Assembly: GCA_958510825.1 (NCBI GenBank)
Contig: OY294045.1
Coordinates: 8,111,916-8,175,915, forward strand
Reading direction: 5' to 3'
Origin: Brachypterus glaber
Taxonomy: Eukaryota; Arthropoda; Insecta; Coleoptera; Kateretidae
Length of the DNA stretch: 64,000 bases
Notes under the pieces: model-generated
Databases searched by the model: none
Seen by the model: only the letters and a program-made list of their open reading frames with translations
What the model was told of the DNA's origin: nothing
Made by a program: the position numbers and the translations under genes
Shown here: positions 19,495-57,455 of the stretch, in pieces
Numbering within the stretch: position 1 is the first letter of the stretch
How the letters are laid out: every line of letters starts with the position of its first letter

Positions 19495-19754
19495 TATAAT
19501 GCAAGGAAATTCCTACATTGTAGGTTAAAAAAAAACAGAAATTTATAACTCTTATTTGCAGCAAAAAATAAAAATTTAAAGTGAGGTTAGTTACTTGTCA
19601 GGATCCTTGGATTTAAAGATTTGAAATATGCCGCGTTACGTAAAATTTTCATACCCGGCTATAAAATTCATATTAATGGACTGCCGCCTAGATTAGATAA
19701 AGAAAGAAGTTCTACAAAAAGAGATAAAAGTATAATTATTATTCTACTGAAATA
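19495..19754. other. No gene seen
   Basis: Spacer before the LINE. The LINE's 5' boundary lies somewhere near 19755. Confidence 0.35.
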
Positions 19755-21165
19755 AAATTATGCATATTTTAGCGCTATGTTTTTCTTCAATGCTTTCTCA
19801 TGGTTATGCACCTGCTGCTCTTACGAAGACGATAATTACACCCATCGTTAAAAACAAAAGTCGGGATATTTCTTCTTCGGCTAATTACCGGCCTATTGCT
19901 ATTTCTACTACGTTTTCTAAAGTACTTGAACTAATCATACTCAATAGATGTAGGCCCTTTTTCCAAACCAGTGACAACCAGTTCGGTTTTAAAAGATCTA
20001 CGGGAGCTGTAGATGCAATTTTTTTATTGAAAGAAACAGTTAGCTACCACCTTAAGAAGAAAACTCCTGTGTATGCAATATTCCTGGATTTAAGTAAAGC
20101 CTTTGATAGGGTTCATCATGTGAAGTTAATCAGAGCCTTAATAAGCCGGAAAGTACCTAGCTATGTTTGCCGCTTCTCACAAAGTTGGAACTCCAAAGCC
20201 ACGGCATCTGTTCGCTGGGGATCTGCCACTTCATCTGACTTCAGTCTACACAACGGTGTACGACAAGGAAGTTTAATTGCCCCTGATGCCTTCAATGCCT
20301 ACATTGACGACCTTCATACTCTCCTGGCTAAAGCCCCTGCTGGATGCTTTCTTGGTGGCCTAAAAGTCAACTGCATCAGCTACGCCGATGATATGGTCCT
20401 TCTTTGCCCCTCACTTCAAGGTCTACGTATGCTTATAAAAATATGTGAAGACTTTGCCAAATCACGTTCTCTTAAATACAATAGTAATAAGAGTAAAGTT
20501 TTAGTGTTCAAGTCCACAAATTATAGAGACCTCTGTGTTCCTCCTATTTATTTAAATAACTCTGTTGTTGAACGCGTGTTCGAAATCAAATACCTAGGTC
20601 ACGTTATCAATGATATGCTAAGTGACAACTCTGACATTCAGCGTCACAAGAAAAACCTTTGTGCCCGCGCAAACATGTTAGCTAGAAAATTCTCTAAGTG
20701 CTCTGTCGAGGTTAAGAACTCTCTTTTCAGGACATTTTGTTCTAACGCATACTGTGGTGAAATTTGGCTTGATCATACGGTGGCCTCGTGGCGAACTCTT
20801 CGCGTATGCTATAATGATGCATATCGCATTATCCATAGACTACCGCGCTATAGTAGTGCCTCGGAAATGTTTGCCTCTGCCCGAATAGATACCCTGGATG
20901 CTCTGAGACGCAAGTTGCTCGCCTCTTTTGTGAAGCGGCTACTCTCCAGTCCTAATGTTTTCCTAAAAGCGTTTGTATCTTCGGACTGCTTTTGGGTTTC
21001 TTCACAAATCGCCACTTGGCGACGCCTTTGTTTCTTACAAGTGACCTAATCATTTTATTTATTTATAAATTATAATTATTTTGTTTTGCTTTATTTTTAT
21101 TTTTATTCATTTTATTATTTTATAGTATATGGCCATTGTGCTGTAATAAAAATTATTATTATTAT
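19755..21165 (+). mobile_element. 5'-truncated non-LTR retrotransposon
   Basis: Consists of the RT frame (19760-21049), a short 3' UTR and a tail of ATT repeats at about 21148-21164. The endonuclease half is missing, as is usual for LINE insertions. No clear target duplication was found. Confidence 0.85.
19760..21049 (+). CDS. Reverse transcriptase of a CR1/Rex-like LINE, lacking its endonuclease
   Basis: The frame is open for 429 residues. Seen in order: ANYRPIAISTTFSKVLE (fingers, about 41-57), LDLSKAFD (109-116, first catalytic Asp), NGVRQGSLIAPDAFN (165-179), and SYADDMVLL (207-215, catalytic Asp pair). A C-terminal segment with KYLGH, and conserved Cys/His later, follows. The start ATG is simply the first after the truncation point; a full element would begin with an AP endonuclease. 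The open frame means the copy is fairly young. The CR1, Crack/Daphne and Rex1 clades are all possible. Confidence 0.85.
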   Translation: MHILALCFSSMLSHGYAPAALTKTIITPIVKNKSRDISSSANYRPIAISTTFSKVLELIILNRCRPFFQTSDNQFGFKRSTGAVDAIFLLKETVSYHLKKKTPVYAIFLDLSKAFDRVHHVKLIRALISRKVPSYVCRFSQSWNSKATASVRWGSATSSDFSLHNGVRQGSLIAPDAFNAYIDDLHTLLAKAPAGCFLGGLKVNCISYADDMVLLCPSLQGLRMLIKICEDFAKSRSLKYNSNKSKVLVFKSTNYRDLCVPPIYLNNSVVERVFEIKYLGHVINDMLSDNSDIQRHKKNLCARANMLARKFSKCSVEVKNSLFRTFCSNAYCGEIWLDHTVASWRTLRVCYNDAYRIIHRLPRYSSASEMFASARIDTLDALRRKLLASFVKRLLSSPNVFLKAFVSSDCFWVSSQIATWRRLCFLQVT

Positions 21166-23912: not shown

Positions 23913-24090
23913 CATCGGCTTACAAGTAAAGAGCACTAAGTCCAAAAACATAGTTTTGAGATATTGACAAATTTAACTTTCATTGTTGTTTTTTAATTTT
24001 TGTAATATTTCTTTTTGAAAAAAAACTACCACAAATTGCAATGACATGTTTGGACATAATAATGTCCCATTTACAGTTAAATAAAGAAAA

Positions 24091-24768
24091 TATGAAGTAG
24101 TTCACAACTACAACCTTGCTGGCCATTATGGACGTACAGAACAGGGGGGTGGGGGTGTTGTAATACTTGTGCGTAGTGACCTAAAATTCAGAGAAGTAAA
24201 TATTAATGATGTCAAACTTAAAGATAAAATGTTTGAGGCTGTCGCAGTGAGTATTGAATATAATAAATCTAGTTTTTACATTTGTAACTTGTATAGATCA
24301 CATAGTGATCTCAAGACAAATCACGAACTTTTTATCAATTCCCTTGAACAACTTTTAGATAGGTTAATGGTGGTTAAGGGGCCCAAATTTATCTGTGCAG
24401 ACTTCAATTATAACTTTTTAGAACCAACAAATATCAATACATGCAAAGTCTTGAATATGTTTACTTCTTATGGATATTTTCAGGGTTTTCATGAGATTTC
24501 AAGGGTTATTTCGGGAACTCTGCTGGATAATATTTTTACTACAGTTGACTTAAATTTAATTACTACTAAAACCATAGATTTCGGGTTTTCTGACCACAGT
24601 GCTCAGATTCTCAATCTAAATACTGATGGTCTTGCAGATTCTGAAAAATCTTCTCATAAACGGCTTTTTAATAAAAATAATAAGACCTTTTTTTCTATCT
24701 TCTTGATTGTGAATCTTGGGACCAAGTTTATCAGGCTGATGATGAAAACAAGTTCTCATATTTTTTAA
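24091..24768 (+). pseudogene. LINE AP-endonuclease, C-terminal part
   Basis: From 24091 the frame reads YEVVHNYNLAGHYGR, GGGGVVILVRSDLKF, then VSIEYNKSSFYICNLYRSH, ICADFNYNF (the GDFN-type motif), LLDNIF and GFSDHSAQI (the SDH motif with the catalytic His). These are the last motifs of the endonuclease in jockey/CR1-group elements. The N-terminal metal-binding motif is missing because the insertion is 5'-truncated. The frame closes at 24768, and the linker to the RT has shifted frame. Confidence 0.85.
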
Positions 24769-25147
24769 GTAAATTTAACAATATATTTAATACCGATTTT
24801 CCCCTTAAGGAGGTTAAAAATAAATCTAAAATTAATAAAAATCCCTGGATAACTAAAAATCTTATAGATGAGGGAGATTTTATCAGGGTCGTTTATAACT
24901 TTTATAAAAGAACTGATGATCCTTACCTCCACGACTTTTATAAACTTCTGGTTAAAAAACATGAGCTGAATATTAACTTTTAGCAAAAAAACAATATTAT
25001 GACGATTTCTTAAACAACGCGGATGATCAAAATAAAGCTGCGTGGAGTATAATAAAACAAAATTGTAACCTTAAATCCAAAAAAGAAAATTTACCAAGAC
25101 TTTCAGGTGCCCAAAAAAATATATTAAATCCAACTGATACGGCGGAT

Positions 25148-26203
25148 TTGATAAATGATCATTTTGTAAACTCTGTAAAATCTCTCATTTCAACAAATGT
25201 CCCTTCTAGTCTTGCCTCACCAAAAATCCCTGTAAATAATAAATCTTTATTTTTGAGTCCTGTCACCACCCATGAAGTTAAGAATATAATAAACTCTGTC
25301 TCAAAGAAAAAATCTGCTGGAGTGGATGGAGTTCCCTGCAGTCTGATTAAGGAAGTGTCTGATCAACTTCTAGAACCTCTTACACATCTAATAAACTGTT
25401 CCTTTGAAACAGGATATTTCCCTAGAGAATTGAAGACGTCAATGGTGGTCCCAATATACAAAAAAGGCAATCCTGACCTTGTGGAAAAGTATAGACCTGT
25501 AGCAATTCTCTCGGTTTTTTCAAAAGTTCTTAAAAAAGCTTTTTATTCTAGATTATTAGATTTTTTTATACTGAACAACCTGCTATCTCCCAGACAGTAT
25601 GGTTTTACTAGGGGCCGGTCCACACAAGATGCAATTTTTTCAATGTTTGATAAAATCTTAGAAAACTTTAACAATAGGCAAAAAACAGGTGGCCTTTTTT
25701 ATGACCTTTCAAAAGCTTTTGATACTATAAACCATAAGTTACTATTAGAAAAGTTATTTGCATATGGAGTACGTGGACCTGCCCTCAGGTGGCTGGAGTC
25801 CTACCTGTCTGGGAGATACCAGATTGTAAAAATGTCAAATATATTTTCGAAGAAGCTTTCTTGTGAATCAGGTGTACCACAGGGAAGTATATTGGGACCA
25901 TTATTATTCATAATTTTTATTAACGATTTGTCTTTTTTTATTAATGAACATCTAATATTATTTGCTGATGACACTTCTGAGATCGTTTCTGCAGGGGATT
26001 TCACCTCACTCAGTGAAAAATTAAATACCTGCATTCTAAATATGTCAACTTGGTGTACTAATAATGGACTAATTTTAAATTCTTCCAAAACCAACTTTAT
26101 TTTGTTTCACCCGCTGAGATCAAATCCTAATCTGAGTATTCTGGTCAAATCTGGTAAAAGTATTGTCCAGCAGAGCGACAGTGGTAAATTTCTGGGTATT
26201 TAA
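25148..26203 (+). pseudogene. LINE reverse transcriptase domain
   Basis: A frame of 351 residues: SAGVDGVPCSLIKE (56-69), VVPIYKKGNPD (100-110), KYRPVAILSVFSKVLKK (114-130), YDLSKAFDTINH (185-196, first catalytic Asp), SGVPQGSILGPLLF (241-254) and LFADDTSE (271-278, catalytic Asp pair). FLGI near the end starts the thumb. A TAG then interrupts it and the C-terminal domain continues from about 26204. The RT core itself is intact, but the protein is split from both its endonuclease and its tail. Confidence 0.9.
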
Positions 26204-26740
26204 ATAGATTCTACCCTTTCATGGAAGTGACATATAGAGGGTCTGGTTAAGAAGTTGGCTACAAAGTGCTATTGTATTTCTCAAATTAGAGATACAGTCA
26301 GTCCTTCTACACTTAAAAAATATTATTTTGGATGCATAAATTCATTACTTACATACGGTCTTCTTTGTTGGGGTGCCCACATTAGTAAGGTTTTTATTCT
26401 TCAAAAAAGAATTATCCGTTTAATGTTCAAAGGCTCGTTTAATTCCTCTTGCAGGACACTGTTTAAACAGCATAGAATTCTCACTATTTATAGTATGTAT
26501 ATACTTGAAAGCGTTGTTTACATCAGGAAAAATTTAGATAGTTTTGTTAACTGTGGGGATGTTAGTTTGTACGTCACTCGTCAATCAGATTCTCTATATG
26601 CCCCCCCTTATAATCTGGTTCAGGTAGGTAGGGGCCCCAAGCTCACCGCCATTGGGCTGTATAATAAGTTGCCTAATTTTATCAAAAGCTCTGGCAGCCT
26701 CAACCAATGTTCTGTATTTACAGAACAAAAAATTATCTGA
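26204..26740 (+). pseudogene. LINE C-terminal domain after the stop
   Basis: Continues the RT protein after the TAG: first a diverged DSTLSWK segment with an internal TGA, then from 26255 a run with CYCISQIRD, YFGCINSLLTYGLLCWG and LQKRIIRLM. These are the usual C-terminal blocks of jockey-group ORF2 proteins. LYNKLP near the end is also typical. Confidence 0.75.
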
Positions 26741-40609: not shown

Positions 40610-40870
40610 ACTAGATTAGATTAGATTAGATTTATTCAGATCCATTGATGTATAGTACAAATCGGATGTAGTCAATACAATATTAGCCAGTATAAAAACA
40701 TATAAAATTATAATAAATAAGTACACACAAATTAAAATTTAGTGACCATAAAATTCAGAGAGAGAGTAAAAACAATTTTCGCTCAGATAATTTTTTGTTC
40801 TGTATTTAAATTGGTTACAAAACTATCTAAATTTTTCCTGATGTAAACAACGCTTTCAAGTATATACATA
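40610..40870 (-). mobile_element. 3' end fragment of the 24084-26925 LINE
   Basis: On the minus strand it matches 26500-26915 of the larger copy but skips the coding segment between TTTTGTTAACTG and CCAATG. It ends in AATCT-type repeats (40610-40632). So this is a 5'-truncated insertion with an internal deletion. Confidence 0.85.
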
Positions 40871-41037
40871 CTAGTTAGCTATAAAAGTTACACGGAAAAA
40901 TCAATAGTTGTTGAGAAAGTGTGAAGCTATAAAAGCCACTAATACCATTAAAGAACCACTTCAAGTGAGGATTGCCAATATAATTCTCATTAAAAGTAAC
41001 CGTTTTACACTGTCATAAAATATTTCGAGAGCATAAA
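40871..41037. other. No gene seen
   Basis: Short spacer leading to the tandem array. Confidence 0.4.
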
Positions 41038-41050
41038 TCATTTTTTTTAA
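41038..41050. repeat. Left 13-bp direct repeat flanking the ribozyme array
   Basis: TCATTTTTTTTAA; the same 13 bases stand at 42475-42487 on the far side of the array. Probably a target-site duplication. Confidence 0.7.
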
Positions 41051-41292
41051 CCGACAAACGTGCAGTATATATTTTTATAGACTGTCAATTCTTAACTTAT
41101 TTAACTCTTCTTAACCGGCTAAAGGTTCATATAATGGTTTAGGTCCGTGGCTTTTTGAATGCACGTTACTGTACACCCTAAATTGTGGCGATTTGCCTTT
41201 TGGGAACAAGTGAACAGATAACAGTGACCACATCAATAGATGGAACCATGCTTTTATATCTATCTAACGTTTTATTTGAATATTAGCAACAT

Positions 41293-41355
41293 ACAGGATA
41301 CACAGTGCTGATGATTCCCAAAAAGGATGAAATGGTACTATTCACTGTTTCCTGT
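41293..41355 (+). ncRNA. Type I hammerhead ribozyme, unit 1
   Basis: Stem I is formed by ACAGGA-TAC-ACAGTG (41293-41307) with CACTGT-T-TCCTGT (41343-41355), 6+6 bp around an internal loop. The core CTGATGA lies at 41308-41314. Stem II is TTCC-CAAAAA-GGAT (41315-41328), three pairs with a U-U mismatch at its base, where G-C is usual. GAAA follows at 41329-41332. Stem III is minimal (AU/AU around a short loop), as is common in animal type I forms. Predicted cleavage is after AUU, between 41342 and 41343. The U-U pair and the AUU triplet may lower activity. Confidence 0.72.
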
Positions 41356-41654
41356 CCATTTGATTTTAACGACAGATAGATAACTTTCTTATATATATTT
41401 TTCGGTTATTAACCGACAAACGTGCAGTATATATTTTTATAGACTGTCAATTCTTAACTTATTTAACTCTTCTTAACCGGCTAAAGGTTCATATAATGGT
41501 TTAGGTCCGTGGCATTTTGAATGCACGTTACTGTACACCCTAAATTGTGGCGATTTGCCTTTTGGGAACAAGTGAACAGATAACAGTGACCACATCAATA
41601 GATGGAACCATGCTTTTATATCTATCTAACGTTTTATTTGAATATTAGCAACAT

Positions 41655-41717
41655 ACAGGATACACAGTGCTGATGATTCCCAAAAAGGATGAAATGGTAC
41701 TATTCACTGTTTCCTGT
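41655..41717 (+). ncRNA. Type I hammerhead ribozyme, unit 2
   Basis: Identical by eye to the unit 1 motif, exactly 362 bp downstream. Cleavage at both would release a unit-length 362-nt RNA. Confidence 0.72.
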
Positions 41718-42016
41718 CCATTTGATTTTAACGACAGATAGATAACTTTCTTATATATATTTTTCGGTTATTAACCGACAAACGTGCAGTATATATTTTT
41801 ATAGACTGTCAATTCTTAACTTATTTAACTCTTCTTAACCGGCTAAAGGTTCATATAATGGTTTAGGTCCGTGGTATTTTGAATGCACGTTACTGTACAC
41901 CCTAAATTGTGGCGATTTGCCTTTTGGGAACAAGTGAACAGATAACAGTGACCACATCAATAGATGGAACCATGCTTTTATATCTATCTAACGTTTTATT
42001 TGAATATTAGCAACAT

Positions 42017-42079
42017 ACAGGATACACAGTGCTGATGATTCCCAAAAAGGATGAAATGGTACTATTCACTGTTTCCTGT
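42017..42079 (+). ncRNA. Type I hammerhead ribozyme, unit 3
   Basis: Same motif at the same phase as in units 1 and 2. Confidence 0.72.
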
Positions 42080-42378
42080 CCATTTGATTTTAACGACAGA
42101 TAGATAACTTTCTTATATATATTTTTCGGTTATTAACCGACAAACGTGCAGTATATATTTTTATAGACTGTCAATTCTTAACTTATTTAACTCTTCTTAA
42201 CCGGCTAAAGGTTCATATAATGGTTTAGGTCCGTGGCTTTTTGAATGCACGTTACTGTACACCCTAAATTGTGGCGATTTGCCTTTTGGGAACAAGTGAA
42301 CAGATAACAGTGACCACATCAATAGATGGAACCATGCTTTTATATTTATCTAACGTTTTATTTGAATATTAGCAACAT

Positions 42379-42441
42379 ACAGGATACACAGTGCTGATGA
42401 TTCCCAAAAAGGATGAAATGGTACTATTCACTGTTTCCTGT
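42379..42441 (+). ncRNA. Type I hammerhead ribozyme, unit 4
   Basis: Same motif. This unit differs from the others elsewhere (TTTATCTAACG for TCTATCTAACG), outside the ribozyme. Confidence 0.72.
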
Positions 42442-42474
42442 CCATTTGATTTTAACGACAGATAGATAACTTTC

Positions 42475-42487
42475 TCATTTTTTTTAA
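42475..42487. repeat. Right 13-bp direct repeat flanking the ribozyme array
   Basis: TCATTTTTTTTAA, identical to 41038-41050. The T-run makes part of the match cheap; the TCA and AA edges add weight. Confidence 0.7.
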
Positions 42488-42745
42488 ATTTTAAAGAATC
42501 CCACTTAGAGTTTTTTTTTAAGTTTAAAAAGTACTTATATTACAATAAGTATACACGGTTCTTTTTTGGGGGTATTTTTTGTTTTTTTCGAAACACTGAA
42601 TTTTCTTTACCATTCGATAGTACCGTCCATTTATATAATTTTCAGCGAAAGGAAAAACAAATTAAAAAAATTGTTGAAATTTTTTTAAAGTTTTTTATTT
42701 ATTTTTTTTTTTAATAATTGGAAAAATGCATTATAAAATGTAAAA
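42488..42745. other. No gene seen
   Basis: T-rich spacer. Confidence 0.4.
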
Positions 42746-42812
42746 AAATAGATCACTTCTAACTAGTGTGTTCAGTTATAAAATATGAACATTTTAGTAC
42801 GCGTGAAGAAAA
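42746..42812 (-). mobile_element. Hairpin element family 1, terminal fragment
   Basis: Only the 5' end of the body in minus orientation, from AAAAATAGATCACTTCTAAC to GTACGCGTGAAG. Everything else is missing. Confidence 0.75.
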
Positions 42813-53463: not shown

Positions 53464-55405
53464 CTTTATTTCATTAATAAAAACTGAAATATCTAGTACA
53501 AGTATTACAGGGATACACAGTTTTGAATATGAAATTAGTCAAAGTTTTGTAAATTGTTCACCAATCGGTATAGTAATCAATACACAAACATAATAAAATA
53601 TATAAATACATGAAAAAAATAAATAAATAAATAAATACATTTAAAATTAGACATTTACAATTATTAAACATATTCAGACATAGAATAGGGTTCCAATTCC
53701 AATAACAATGCATGAACTTGTTTTTTATATGTGTTAAAATTTCTAGATGACTTAATGCTATTAGGCAATTTGTTAAAAACCGATATACATGAATATAAAC
53801 AACCCTTTTCAAACTGTGTAAGTCTATGGATGGGAAAATTATAATTAATATTCCTTGTGCTTGAGCTCAACATATTATGAAATAAAGAATTGTTCTTGTG
53901 TATGAAAATTAGAAGTTCGTAAATGTAAAGACCTGTGAAAGTTAAAATATTGTTCTTTTTGAAATGACCTCTGCATGACTCATTATATCTCAGACCCAGC
54001 ATAGCTCGTAAAGCTCGTTTTTGAATCGTAAACACCTCCTGCACGTTTGTGCTTTGGCCCCAGAACATAATACCAAATTTTAAAATTGACTGGAAGTTAG
54101 AAAAATATACAATTTTTAATGTATCCAAAGCAACGTATGATTTAAGGACGCGAATAGAATAAACGGATTTATTTAACTTTTTGCAGAGTTCTTCAAGTTG
54201 ATGGTTCCAATTTAGGTTTTCGTCCAAAACCAAACCCAAGAATTTAGTTTGGTTGCAAGTATCTACTTGAAAATTCTCAAAATGTACCTGTTCTGGTGTC
54301 ATAACGTCTTAAACATAATAATGTTTTGTTTTTATTTAAAATTAGCCTGTTCATCAAAAACCACTGAAATAGGTCTTTGAGCGTTGTTTCTAGCAATCTC
54401 ATTAAGTCACAGTAGTTTTTTGCCTTTATGATAAGGTTAGTGTCATCGGCAAAGTTAATTAAATTTCCGTATCTAATCGACGATATTATGTCGTTCATAT
54501 AAATAATAAATAAAACTGGTCCGATTACACTACCTTGTGCAATTCCTACTGTGACTTCAGAAGACTCGGAAGTACAAGTGTGCCCGTCTTTAACGACTTC
54601 CACTTTTTGAAATCTATTTCTTACAAACGATTTGATCCACTCCAGTGCCTCTCCTCTCGAGCTTTGTAAATAAGATTTCATGATCTATAGTACCATATGC
54701 CTTAGATAAATCAAGAAATGTACCTATGATGTATTCTAGATTTTCAAAGCCCGAGAGTATTTCGTGAGTGAAGCTATGCACTGCAGTATTTATAGATCTG
54801 TTTTTCAGATATCCATGTTGGCAGTCGTTAAATAATTGATTTACATTGAAGAAATCCACAATCCTATTTGCCATTGCTGTTTCAAAATTTTTTGAAAAAG
54901 ATGACAATAGGCTGATAGGTCTGTAATTCCCTATCAATGCTGGATCACCCTTTTTATAAACGGGTTTTACTAATGCAACCTTTAGACTTTCTGGAAAGAC
55001 ACCATACGTGCAAGAGTTGTTTACAATATAGGCAAGGGGGCTACAAATTTCAGGAATGCAAAACTTGATCACTGAGGTCGGAATTTCATCAATACCGCTA
55101 CTTAGTTTGTTTTTAAGGTTTCTTACAATATCTTGAATTTCTAGGCAAGAGACAGGTTTTATAAAGATTGATTTTGGGTTATTTTTTACGTTGCATTCAA
55201 ATTCTACTTGCTCTAGGTCATTAATAAGTGTTTTCGCAGCATTGATGAAAAAATTGTTAATATCAGCTGCCAATCTTTTCGCATCACCTGGAATCCGAAC
55301 ACTATCCTTCCCTTTTCCGCCCTTTACGTCTTTTATTATATTCCAAACCGTTTTGCTTTTATTTTCTGAGTTCTTTATTTGATTTGAGTATACTTTTACA
55401 ATTAT
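53421..55405 (-). mobile_element. 5'-truncated jockey/CR1-type LINE with ATT-repeat tail
   Basis: On the minus strand: RT and C-terminal coding region, a 3' UTR and about twelve ATT repeats at 53428-53463. TTACAATAAT (53421-53430) and TTACAATTAT (55396-55405) may be the remains of a target duplication. Confidence 0.8.
53664..55397 (-). pseudogene. LINE reverse transcriptase in three frames
   Basis: The first segment (from about 55397, open to 54614) reads SKTVWNIIKDVKG, then SSGIDEIPTSVIK, VKPVYKKGDPALIGNYRPIS, and FLDLSKAYGTIDH. Here the usual DLSKAFD has become DLSKAYG, so the Asp-following residues are altered. The second segment (54681-54277) has GIAQGSVIGPVLFIIY and NFADDTNL, the catalytic Asp pair. 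The third (54302-53664) has FLGLVLDENLNW, GIMFWG and FNKLPNSIKSS. Two frameshifts separate these. Same protein group as 25148-26740 but a distinct, diverged element. Confidence 0.85.
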
Positions 55406-56699
55406 TAAAAATTAAATGCTTATATTTTTAAAATTATTAGGTTTTTACAGTTGTTTTAATTTTAATTATTTTTAAGGATACTCTTTAAAGTATTAAGGAT
55501 CAATTAATTTAAATTCTAAAATAATATTTCTCACTTTCTTTTAAGTTAAAGTAGCGTACTTAACATCGGGCGTCCCTTGACACATGTGAAATTTCAAAAT
55601 TTTCGGTTTTTTGCAGTGCTCAAAAGTTAATAGTCTATTCTCTATAAAAGAACGACTTAAAGTTAGCAGTAAACACTATTTGTTGCGAGTCAGCCATAAC
55701 AAATTTAGTGCTAGACACGTTCTTGTGTTGAGACACGAGGTGGTGACGATCAATATATCAATCCCTTGGTGAGTAATTCTGTTGTAATTTATTGGTACTT
55801 GTTTTTGATTAATTTTAATTTAACTTTTTTTTTGTGTGAACAATTAGTATAGAAACTAAAAACGCCAGTATTTCGTTTTAATCAGAAGATTTTCTATGTT
55901 TTTTACGAAATTTATTATTCTTACGAGGGGTAAACCGTTGAGGAATTTAGGTGTACAAATTGGAGGGAATCTTGGAGGTAACTTCTCGAGAAAATCCGAG
56001 GAAATCAAATCTTTACAAAATTTGGAACCTTTTTTAGGTTATTTTCAAGATTTTTAGACGTAATCTTGAAGGAAATTCCAAGAAAATCTTAAGGGAATAC
56101 CTCCAAGTAGGAATTTAGATGTATAATTCTTTTTTAGCGGTTTAACTCTCAATTTATTATTATAAATGTTCAAAAATGTAATAAAAAAAATCTTCAAAGG
56201 GACCAAAAAGAATTTTAATTAGCCTATCAAAGCAAAGCCCCCTTAGGAACACCCCAACTTTGTTTTTTACAGTAGCACTACACTCTTTTTGAGCGATTAT
56301 TAAAGTGCAATAAGTTCTTATTTTAACGATACCAACACCCACCCTCAACCTCTATTTTATCTGAGTAATACGTGGGACGGAGTGAGTCACAGAAGGTGGT
56401 TGTTTATGCGGCAACTATTTTTTTTTTATTTTTTTTAACCAATATTTTTTTTGTGCAAAAAACAAGAGAATAATAAATTGTCTCTATTTTATTTTATTTT
56501 ATTTTATTTTAATAGACTTCCACTCGAGTAGCAGCCCCAAATAAAGTGAAATTGAACTACGCTTCTGTGAAGTTTAATGTAATTTGGTTTAGGCTAACTG
56601 CGGATAAAAGTGTTTACATCATTCAATGTAGGATTCAGTTCCCTTTAATAACGCTCAAAAAAAAAGTGGCATGTTAAAAAAAAACAAAGTTGTGGTGGT
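55406..56699. other. No gene seen
   Basis: AT-rich, with a TTTTA simple repeat at about 56485-56512. A GAATTTAGRTGTA block appears twice (55935 and 56110). No gene. Confidence 0.45.
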
Positions 56700-57455
56700 C
56701 CTAGGAGGGTGAGTTATTATAGGGTAGGTTTTTATAGGGTTTGCATTTTCTTAAAATATTGTCAATGTTATCAATTTGATATTGATATTTAGGGCACCAA
56801 ATAATGCTTACATATTCCAGTTTAGGTAAAACAAAAGTATTAAAAAGCGTAAATAAAAGTGTTCTATCATTGAATCCATAACAGTTTCTGATAACAAAAC
56901 CAAGGCTGCGATATGCTGAAGATACTATATTCTCAATGTGTAAGTTAAACTCTAATTTACTATCGAATGTCACACCCAAATCCTTAATTTCAGTTACCCT
57001 CATAATAGATTTATCTTGAATTTGATAGTCAAAAAAAACCGTGACATTGGACATATAGGTACCTTTCTAGCAAGTATGAAATGAAAAAATAAATAAGTGG
57101 AATGGAAAAGCCTATATCATACATTGCCTGTAAGAGAATAGGGTGTTTAAGTACATCAAAGGCCTTAGAGAAATCAGTATGGATTACGTCAACTTGCCCT
57201 CCATTGTCAAGAGTGTCAGAAATATATTGGGTAATACAGCAAAGATTTGTTGCAGTTGACCGTCTCTTTAAGAAACCGTGCTGTTTTTCAGATAGCCAGT
57301 GTTTTATGTTTGCATAAATTAATTTGTGGAGAACAATCTCAAACACCTTGGCAAAATTGGATATTATCGTAATGGGACGATAATTTTCCACATATTTTTG
57401 TCTCCCTTTTTAAAAACTGGAACAATTTTTGCTAGCTTCCACTTCTAAGGGAATT
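56700..57455 (-). pseudogene. LINE RT remnant with the catalytic centre deleted
   Basis: On the minus strand, from about 57450: WKLAKIVPVFKKGDK, then after a one-base frameshift ENYRPITIISNFAKVFE, GFLKRRSTATNL and HTDFSKAFDVLKHPIL. At RYLYVQCH (about 57050) the sequence jumps to FFDYQIQDK, RVTEIKDLGVTFDSKLEF and the thumb-like LPKLEYVSIIW. The GxPQGS and YADD blocks between are gone. The deletion removes the catalytic Asp pair, so the copy is certainly inactive. It differs from the LINE at 53421-55405. Confidence 0.8.

Follow-up and report, generated by a model that had tools for sequence, protein, structure and literature searches.

A beetle retrozyme with two fixed 3' ends and head-to-head arms: insertion anatomy in Brachypterus glaber suggests mobilisation by a Penelope-like enzyme

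Animal retrozymes and Penelope-like elements (PLEs) are the closest described systems to the element reported here. According to the available text of PMC7229834, animal retrozyme relatives are mostly circular in vivo, and that text, like the available part of PMC7761336, leaves open both the enzyme and the template by which animal retrozymes are inserted. The latter source, a review from 2020, states in its available part that no motif reveals the partner of a retrozyme (PMC7761336). For PLEs, a protein studied in vitro in 2024 cleaved and extended both strands of an AT-rich target, and its starts lay at two adjacent internal sites, the interval between them corresponding to the genomic 'tail' (PMC11167929). 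In that assay 5'-ATT-3' was favoured, the start site was non-homologous to the cut DNA and did not differ between the strands, and ribozyme mutants were still inserted (PMC11167929). The accessible part of PMC3846280 describes EN-containing Penelopes with head-to-head pLTRs, an optional tail and, in the cases quoted, duplications of 8-10 bp. Self-priming on an antisense template had been proposed for PLE insertion (PMC3846280).

The locus described here lies in a stretch of 64,000 nucleotides from the beetle Brachypterus glaber (contig OY294045.1, positions 8,111,916 to 8,175,915), hereafter the window. A preliminary description, made from the sequence alone, had proposed a retrozyme-like array of four near-identical units with a strict period of 362 bp between 13-bp direct repeats. 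The analysis confirmed this: Tandem Repeats Finder gave an array at 41047-42475 with period 362, 3.9 copies and 99% matches, and the element between the two identical copies of TCATTTTTTTTAA measures 1424 bp, or 3.93 units, i.e. three whole units and one lacking 24 bp, with four hammerhead ribozymes within them (Table 1). The GC content of the element is 0.34, and no stop-to-stop frame of at least 110 amino acids was found within 41038-42487. By its TTAA the 13-bp repeat may overlap the element, which would point to possible microhomology at the 5' junction. Elsewhere in the window there are frames of LINE-type reverse transcriptase and endonuclease (19751-21049, 24085-26740 and, on the minus strand, 53664-55411 and 56701-57409). 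In a Pfam scan of three window stretches RVT_1 was found in 19751-21046 and 24977-26200, and Exo_endo_phos below cut-off in 24085-24765; the minus-strand frames were judged by eye.

Table 1 Features of the retrozyme insertion in the window (positions are those of the window)
Feature	Position	Strand	Remark
Target-site duplication, left copy, 13 bp, TCATTTTTTTTAA	41038..41050	.	identical to 42475-42487
Retrozyme insertion, 3.93 units, locus L046, single A-ended arm, 3' end ..GATAACTTTC	41051..42474	+	
Hammerhead, unit 1, predicted cleavage after 41342	41289..41365	+	Rfam RF02275
Hammerhead, unit 2, predicted cleavage after 41704	41651..41727	+	Rfam RF02275
Hammerhead, unit 3, predicted cleavage after 42066	42013..42089	+	Rfam RF02275
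Hammerhead, unit 4, predicted cleavage after 42428	42375..42451	+	Rfam RF02275
Site B, internal example, TTCTTAACTTA then TTTAAC	41451..41461	+	arm 3' ends
Site A, internal example, GATAACTTTCTTA then TATAT	41741..41753	+	arm 3' ends
Target-site duplication, right copy	42475..42487	.	identical to 41038..41050

The type I hammerhead that had been claimed for each unit was also recovered. When an E-value threshold was applied to 40700-42800, the model Hammerhead_HH9 (RF02275) matched end to end in 4/4 units, at 77/77 positions and with 29.8 bits and an E-value of 6.6e-5 each. The score is below the curated gathering score of 52, and the window thus has no Rfam match at the gathering threshold; a search with the hammerhead model, proposed earlier as a check, scores the units, though under the curated cut-off. 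Both the 6+6 bp stem I and the U-U pair at the base of helix II can be drawn as claimed, and the predicted AUU cleavage triplet is where it had been placed, at 41340-41342 in unit 1. Helix III is short (A-U, U-A, G-U, closed by the loop GUAC), and such a weak helix with a palindromic loop would be expected to act better as a dimer. For the 77-mer, the minimum-energy structure is more stable than that of the ribozyme by 4.3 kcal/mol. The folding energy of the unit is ordinary (z -1.2), and in circular folding the two sites A and B described below are mostly unpaired.

The family is dispersed in the genome (648 Mb, 842 contigs). At least 89 retrozyme matches were found on 11 contigs (C1, C2, C4, C10-C12 and C15-C19), a lower bound since scoring covered only 39 of the 1411 candidates from a first look and the sample consists of the best matches. 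The 38 regions fetched cover every listed match place, the window locus included. The copies are dispersed multimers with differing flanks and with target duplications, which supports the retrozyme identity of the element and does not fit a single satellite array, the alternative for which a genome-wide check had been proposed. The window element is thus a dispersed retrozyme of the animal type rather than a satellite; it is a real, new animal retrozyme of an already known kind. Identity between arm and unit reaches 100% in L038, which suggests that the family has been active recently. At one locus (L015, C12:21084500-21092500) two retrozyme arrays lie 2 kb apart and abut an identical flank of 14 letters, which suggests a local duplication after insertion. 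Apart from the retrozyme, the assembly holds the mitochondrial genome as a tandem in one contig (G000 contig C223, L082). The tandem is probably an assembly effect; the copies are about 21.9 kb each by COI spacing, which is large for an insect-like genome. The COI gene can be read with table 5 and was judged to resemble that of insects.

The structure of the insertions was determined from their arms, with phase 0 of the unit set at window position 41411. The count covers 58 arms from 34 loci; arms shorter than 60 nt and the loci L024, L029, L043 and L045 were excluded. In 57/58 of the counted arms the 3' end is at one of two sites: 32 end at A (phases 330-3, about 341), 25 at B (phases 45-66, about 52) and 1 elsewhere. 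The 5' ends are uniform over the unit (KS p 0.48, n=58). The stretch from A to B, which we call the tail, is about 70 nt. Clean head-to-head insertions of two arms with the 3' ends outward are present in 23 of the 38 loci, and in 23/23 there is one A end and one B end, never A with A or B with B; for a free choice between two equal sites the chance of this would be near 1 in 8 million. The remaining loci comprise 10 with A only, 2 with B only, 2 complex ones (L029 and L045, the latter with further pieces beyond its A and B ends) and 1 without a terminal motif (L024). The window copy is one-armed and A-only, whereas the commonest clean form in this genome is two-armed. The excess of A-only loci suggests that A is primed first.

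Some of this classification was made by eye. Where the array ran on beyond a motif hit (L010, L013, L018, L024, L029, L041, L045), the hit was set aside in this way, as was a weak motif hit outside the element in L014. No poly-A or simple-repeat 3' tail was found at the ends. The inner junctions of the 23 clean loci were also inspected by eye. In 15 loci the two BLAST pieces share 0-9 bases, a count without an overlap control, and in L025 and L039 they share 23 and 43 bases. The pieces are 2 bases apart in L013 and L016, and L012, L018 and L037 have gaps of about 568, 1080 and 63 bases, respectively. The A arm of L028 is about 19 nt and was missed by BLAST, and two loci, L009 (14.6 units) and L011, have arms of more than 10 units.

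Target duplications of 11-15 bp, most commonly 12, flank 22 of the 23 clean two-ended loci, the exception being L016, whereas an identical search of mismatched flank pairs gave a duplication of at least 11 bp in only 2/506. For L012 and L025 two determinations of the duplication length were one base apart. Among the 12 single-ended loci a repeat of 11-13 bp was present only in L022, L040 and the window locus, and one of 9 bp in L017 and L019; the others had no trusted flanking repeat. The nick is followed by GTT in 16/44 cases, 8 on each strand, against a background of 0.018 in the flanks. The same preference on both strands suggests that the two nicks are made alike, as by a symmetric enzyme. 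The exact start varies by a few bases at both sites, A and B, and the target end and the RNA match there over short stretches, for which there was no chance control. On the minus strand the target of the window copy reads TT and then eight A.

Rare variants were used to compare the templates of the two arms in 21 two-arm loci, L018, L024, L029, L043 and L045 being excluded. In 9/21 loci the arms have rare variants in common and thus share a template; 19/45 variants are shared, while permutation gave a mean of 2.6 and a maximum of 16, with 0/5000 reaching 19. When the commonest variant, at phase 195, was left out, 15 shared variants remained (permutation mean 1.3, maximum 14, 0/5000). The phase-195 polymorphism is uniform within 30/33 loci, compared with 8.1 at random, and in L030, L036 and L038 the sharing is limited to it. 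Examples are L014, one arm of which carries four family-rare variants in 5/5 laps while its other arm, a single lap, has them too, and L033, where seven family-rare variants recur in laps and in both arms. No shared variant was found in 12/21 loci, which slightly lowers our confidence in the reading preferred below; six of these loci have no variants in the shared stretch. The other six (L016, L020, L032, L035, L041 and L042) have only unshared variants, which may be later mutations. Along the arrays of L016, L023, L015 and L013 variants switch in blocks, best read as jumps of reverse transcription between templates. A variation hotspot at phases 103-104 of the window array was suspected to reflect modification of a base in the template, but this was rejected, as over all loci these phases are not among the most variable. 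Taken as insertion scars, the arms indicate that both cDNAs can derive from one RNA source.

The arms also pass over the ribozyme cleavage site. It is crossed by 56/58 arms, in 157 crossings, and in 1/58 arms, with 1.8 expected, the 5' end is no more than 5 nt away from that of the ribozyme. The template was thus continuous at this site, being either circular or a multimer that had stayed uncut. We favour the circle by analogy with relatives, as reported in the available text of PMC7229834. Copying of the retrozyme via RNA is well supported, and copying via an RNA circle is suggested.

The genome contains possible sources of the enzyme. There are 31 GIY-YIG matches above cut-off, and one frame (L047) combines RVT_1 with GIY-YIG. 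A single PLE protein gave 64 genome matches, several in stop-free frames longer than 800 aa and up to 861 aa; long open frames were observed in the families of L047 (C556), L048 (C11), L057/L060/L061/L064 and L052-L059/L065. Six PLE copies were inspected by eye. Four of them (L048, c57, c64, c65) have the anatomy of one A and one B end, with flanking repeats of 11-18 bp; c60, one of the five two-ended copies, has B and a third site, and the sixth, c61, has B with no inverted arm seen within 3 kb. In two PLE families a minimal hammerhead, recognised by pattern only, has its GAAA 70-72 nt before A, compared with 59 nt in the retrozyme, and the tails of these two families are 27 and 38 nt, compared with about 70 nt. 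No Rfam hammerhead was found at the PLE loci, family F47 (L047, L048) included. A partner PLE sharing its start-site sequence with the retrozyme was not found among the PLEs compared: of 17 PLE-start stretches, at least 5 of them without a clear frame start, 16 matched the retrozyme unit no better than shuffles did and the remaining one (L068) gave a weak, AT-rich match, and blastn-short of the unit against the PLEs gave a best E-value of 0.049 and no convincing match. Upstream of a PLE match, at L068:204-236, 13 bases are identical to part of the retrozyme sequence that precedes site A; the match is AT-rich and possibly due to chance.

We consider it probable that the element is a non-autonomous retrozyme, inserted by a PLE-type enzyme with priming by the two target strands at A and B of one circular RNA. 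The tandem array would be transcribed and its hammerheads would cut the RNA into 362-nt units, which, by analogy with reports on relatives, would presumably be closed into circles. A protein of PLE type, combining reverse transcriptase with GIY-YIG endonuclease, would make two nicks in an AT-rich target, one per strand and about 12 bp from each other, each nick preferring GTT next. One of the target strands would then prime with its 3' end at A, and the other, probably later, at B on the same RNA, and each transcript would run backwards round the circle, over less than one lap at the least and about 14 at the most. Head-to-head joining of the cDNAs would follow, and the duplication would arise when the 12-nt overhangs were repaired. 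If the B arm failed, a single A arm would be joined to the target, as may have happened with the window copy. A more general proposal, on which our judgement is evenly divided, is that PLE enzymes carry out a concerted integration on two strands, each target-strand 3' end priming at its own dedicated site on a single RNA, and that retrozymes exploit this by means of circles. On that proposal each insertion would consist of two head-to-head rolling-circle cDNAs, and a separate second-strand synthesis of a linear copy would not be needed.

Priming at two sites by two strands could also have taken place on linear multimer transcripts that were never cleaved, the ribozyme being unneeded for insertion. 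This would also explain the crossing of the cleavage site; source arrays are near-uniform, so that a linear transcript would also yield uniform laps, and the block changes of variants in four loci would come easily from a mixed-array template. Insertion of ribozyme mutants in the PLE assay (PMC11167929) points the same way. However, the ribozyme is kept in 4/4 window units, the 14.6-unit arm of L009 would need a source of the same or greater length that had escaped many ribozymes, and the relatives are reported, in the available text of PMC7229834, as mostly circular in vivo. We therefore regard linear multimers as rather unlikely.

We give much less weight to mobilisation by an ordinary LINE, in which twin priming would occur by chance, as in the 5' inversions of L1, even though the window has frames of the required LINE type. 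L1 insertions too show duplications and head-to-head junctions, and the target of the window copy resembles an L1 target. A poly-A or simple-repeat tail is nevertheless missing from the ends, the priming sites are fixed, with one of each in every clean two-ended locus, and the GTT preference is identical at both nicks. Tandem units of 362 bp and the two very long arms might instead recall a satellite spread as DNA, through unequal crossing over or as extrachromosomal circles, the repeats on either side being there by chance. This we find extremely improbable, as duplications flank nearly all two-ended loci, 3' ends are fixed while 5' ends are scattered, and the places are on 11 contigs. A transposon with terminal inverted repeats was rejected: at their tips the A and B ends of the retrozyme do not mirror each other as such repeats would, B being longer by about 70 nt.

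Priming of both target strands on a circular RNA by a PLE-type enzyme, our preferred reading, has consequences for both kinds of element. PLEs had previously only been proposed as mobilisers of retrozymes, and the insertion scars are structural evidence in favour of them. The scars tie the retrozyme to PLE chemistry, and the start sites and nick preference that they reveal are open to assay, so that an open guess on the mobilising enzyme becomes a testable mechanism. The rule of one A and one B also bears on the insertion of PLEs themselves. Literature searches, with many closed-journal papers outside their scope, found no description of a two-site, two-arm retrozyme insertion, and the anatomy is new as far as these searches show.

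Compared with PLEs, the retrozyme copies are similarly arranged head to head with one end longer by the tail, and they share AT-rich targets, duplications and hammerheads. They differ from PLEs in having no protein gene, in being much shorter and in forming arrays of several laps, and further in the helix III of the hammerhead, the longer tail and the GTT after both nicks. The GTT, the short matches at the starts and the strict pairing of A with B also distinguish them from the PLE studied in vitro (PMC11167929), which counts against the preferred reading. Plant LTR retrozymes likewise have hammerhead ribozymes, and their spread by circular RNA is reported in the title of PMC4918200; they carry LTRs, type III hammerheads and 4-bp duplications, as stated in the available text of PMC7229834, whereas the hammerheads here are of type I and the duplications are of 11-15 bp. 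With the animal non-LTR retrozymes, as described in the available text of Cervera and de la Pena (2020, PMC7229834), the element has in common tandem units of 150-450 bp, low GC, a lack of coding capacity, a type I hammerhead with a short helix III and duplications of more than 4 bp. The same text shows the U-U pair at the base of helix II in HHR_Amex2, one of the two axolotl retrozyme ribozymes. The words 'inverted' and 'head-to-head' have no occurrence in the main text of PMC7229834 as available; unlike the animal non-LTR retrozymes as described there, the beetle element has an insertion resolved into two arms with two fixed starts.
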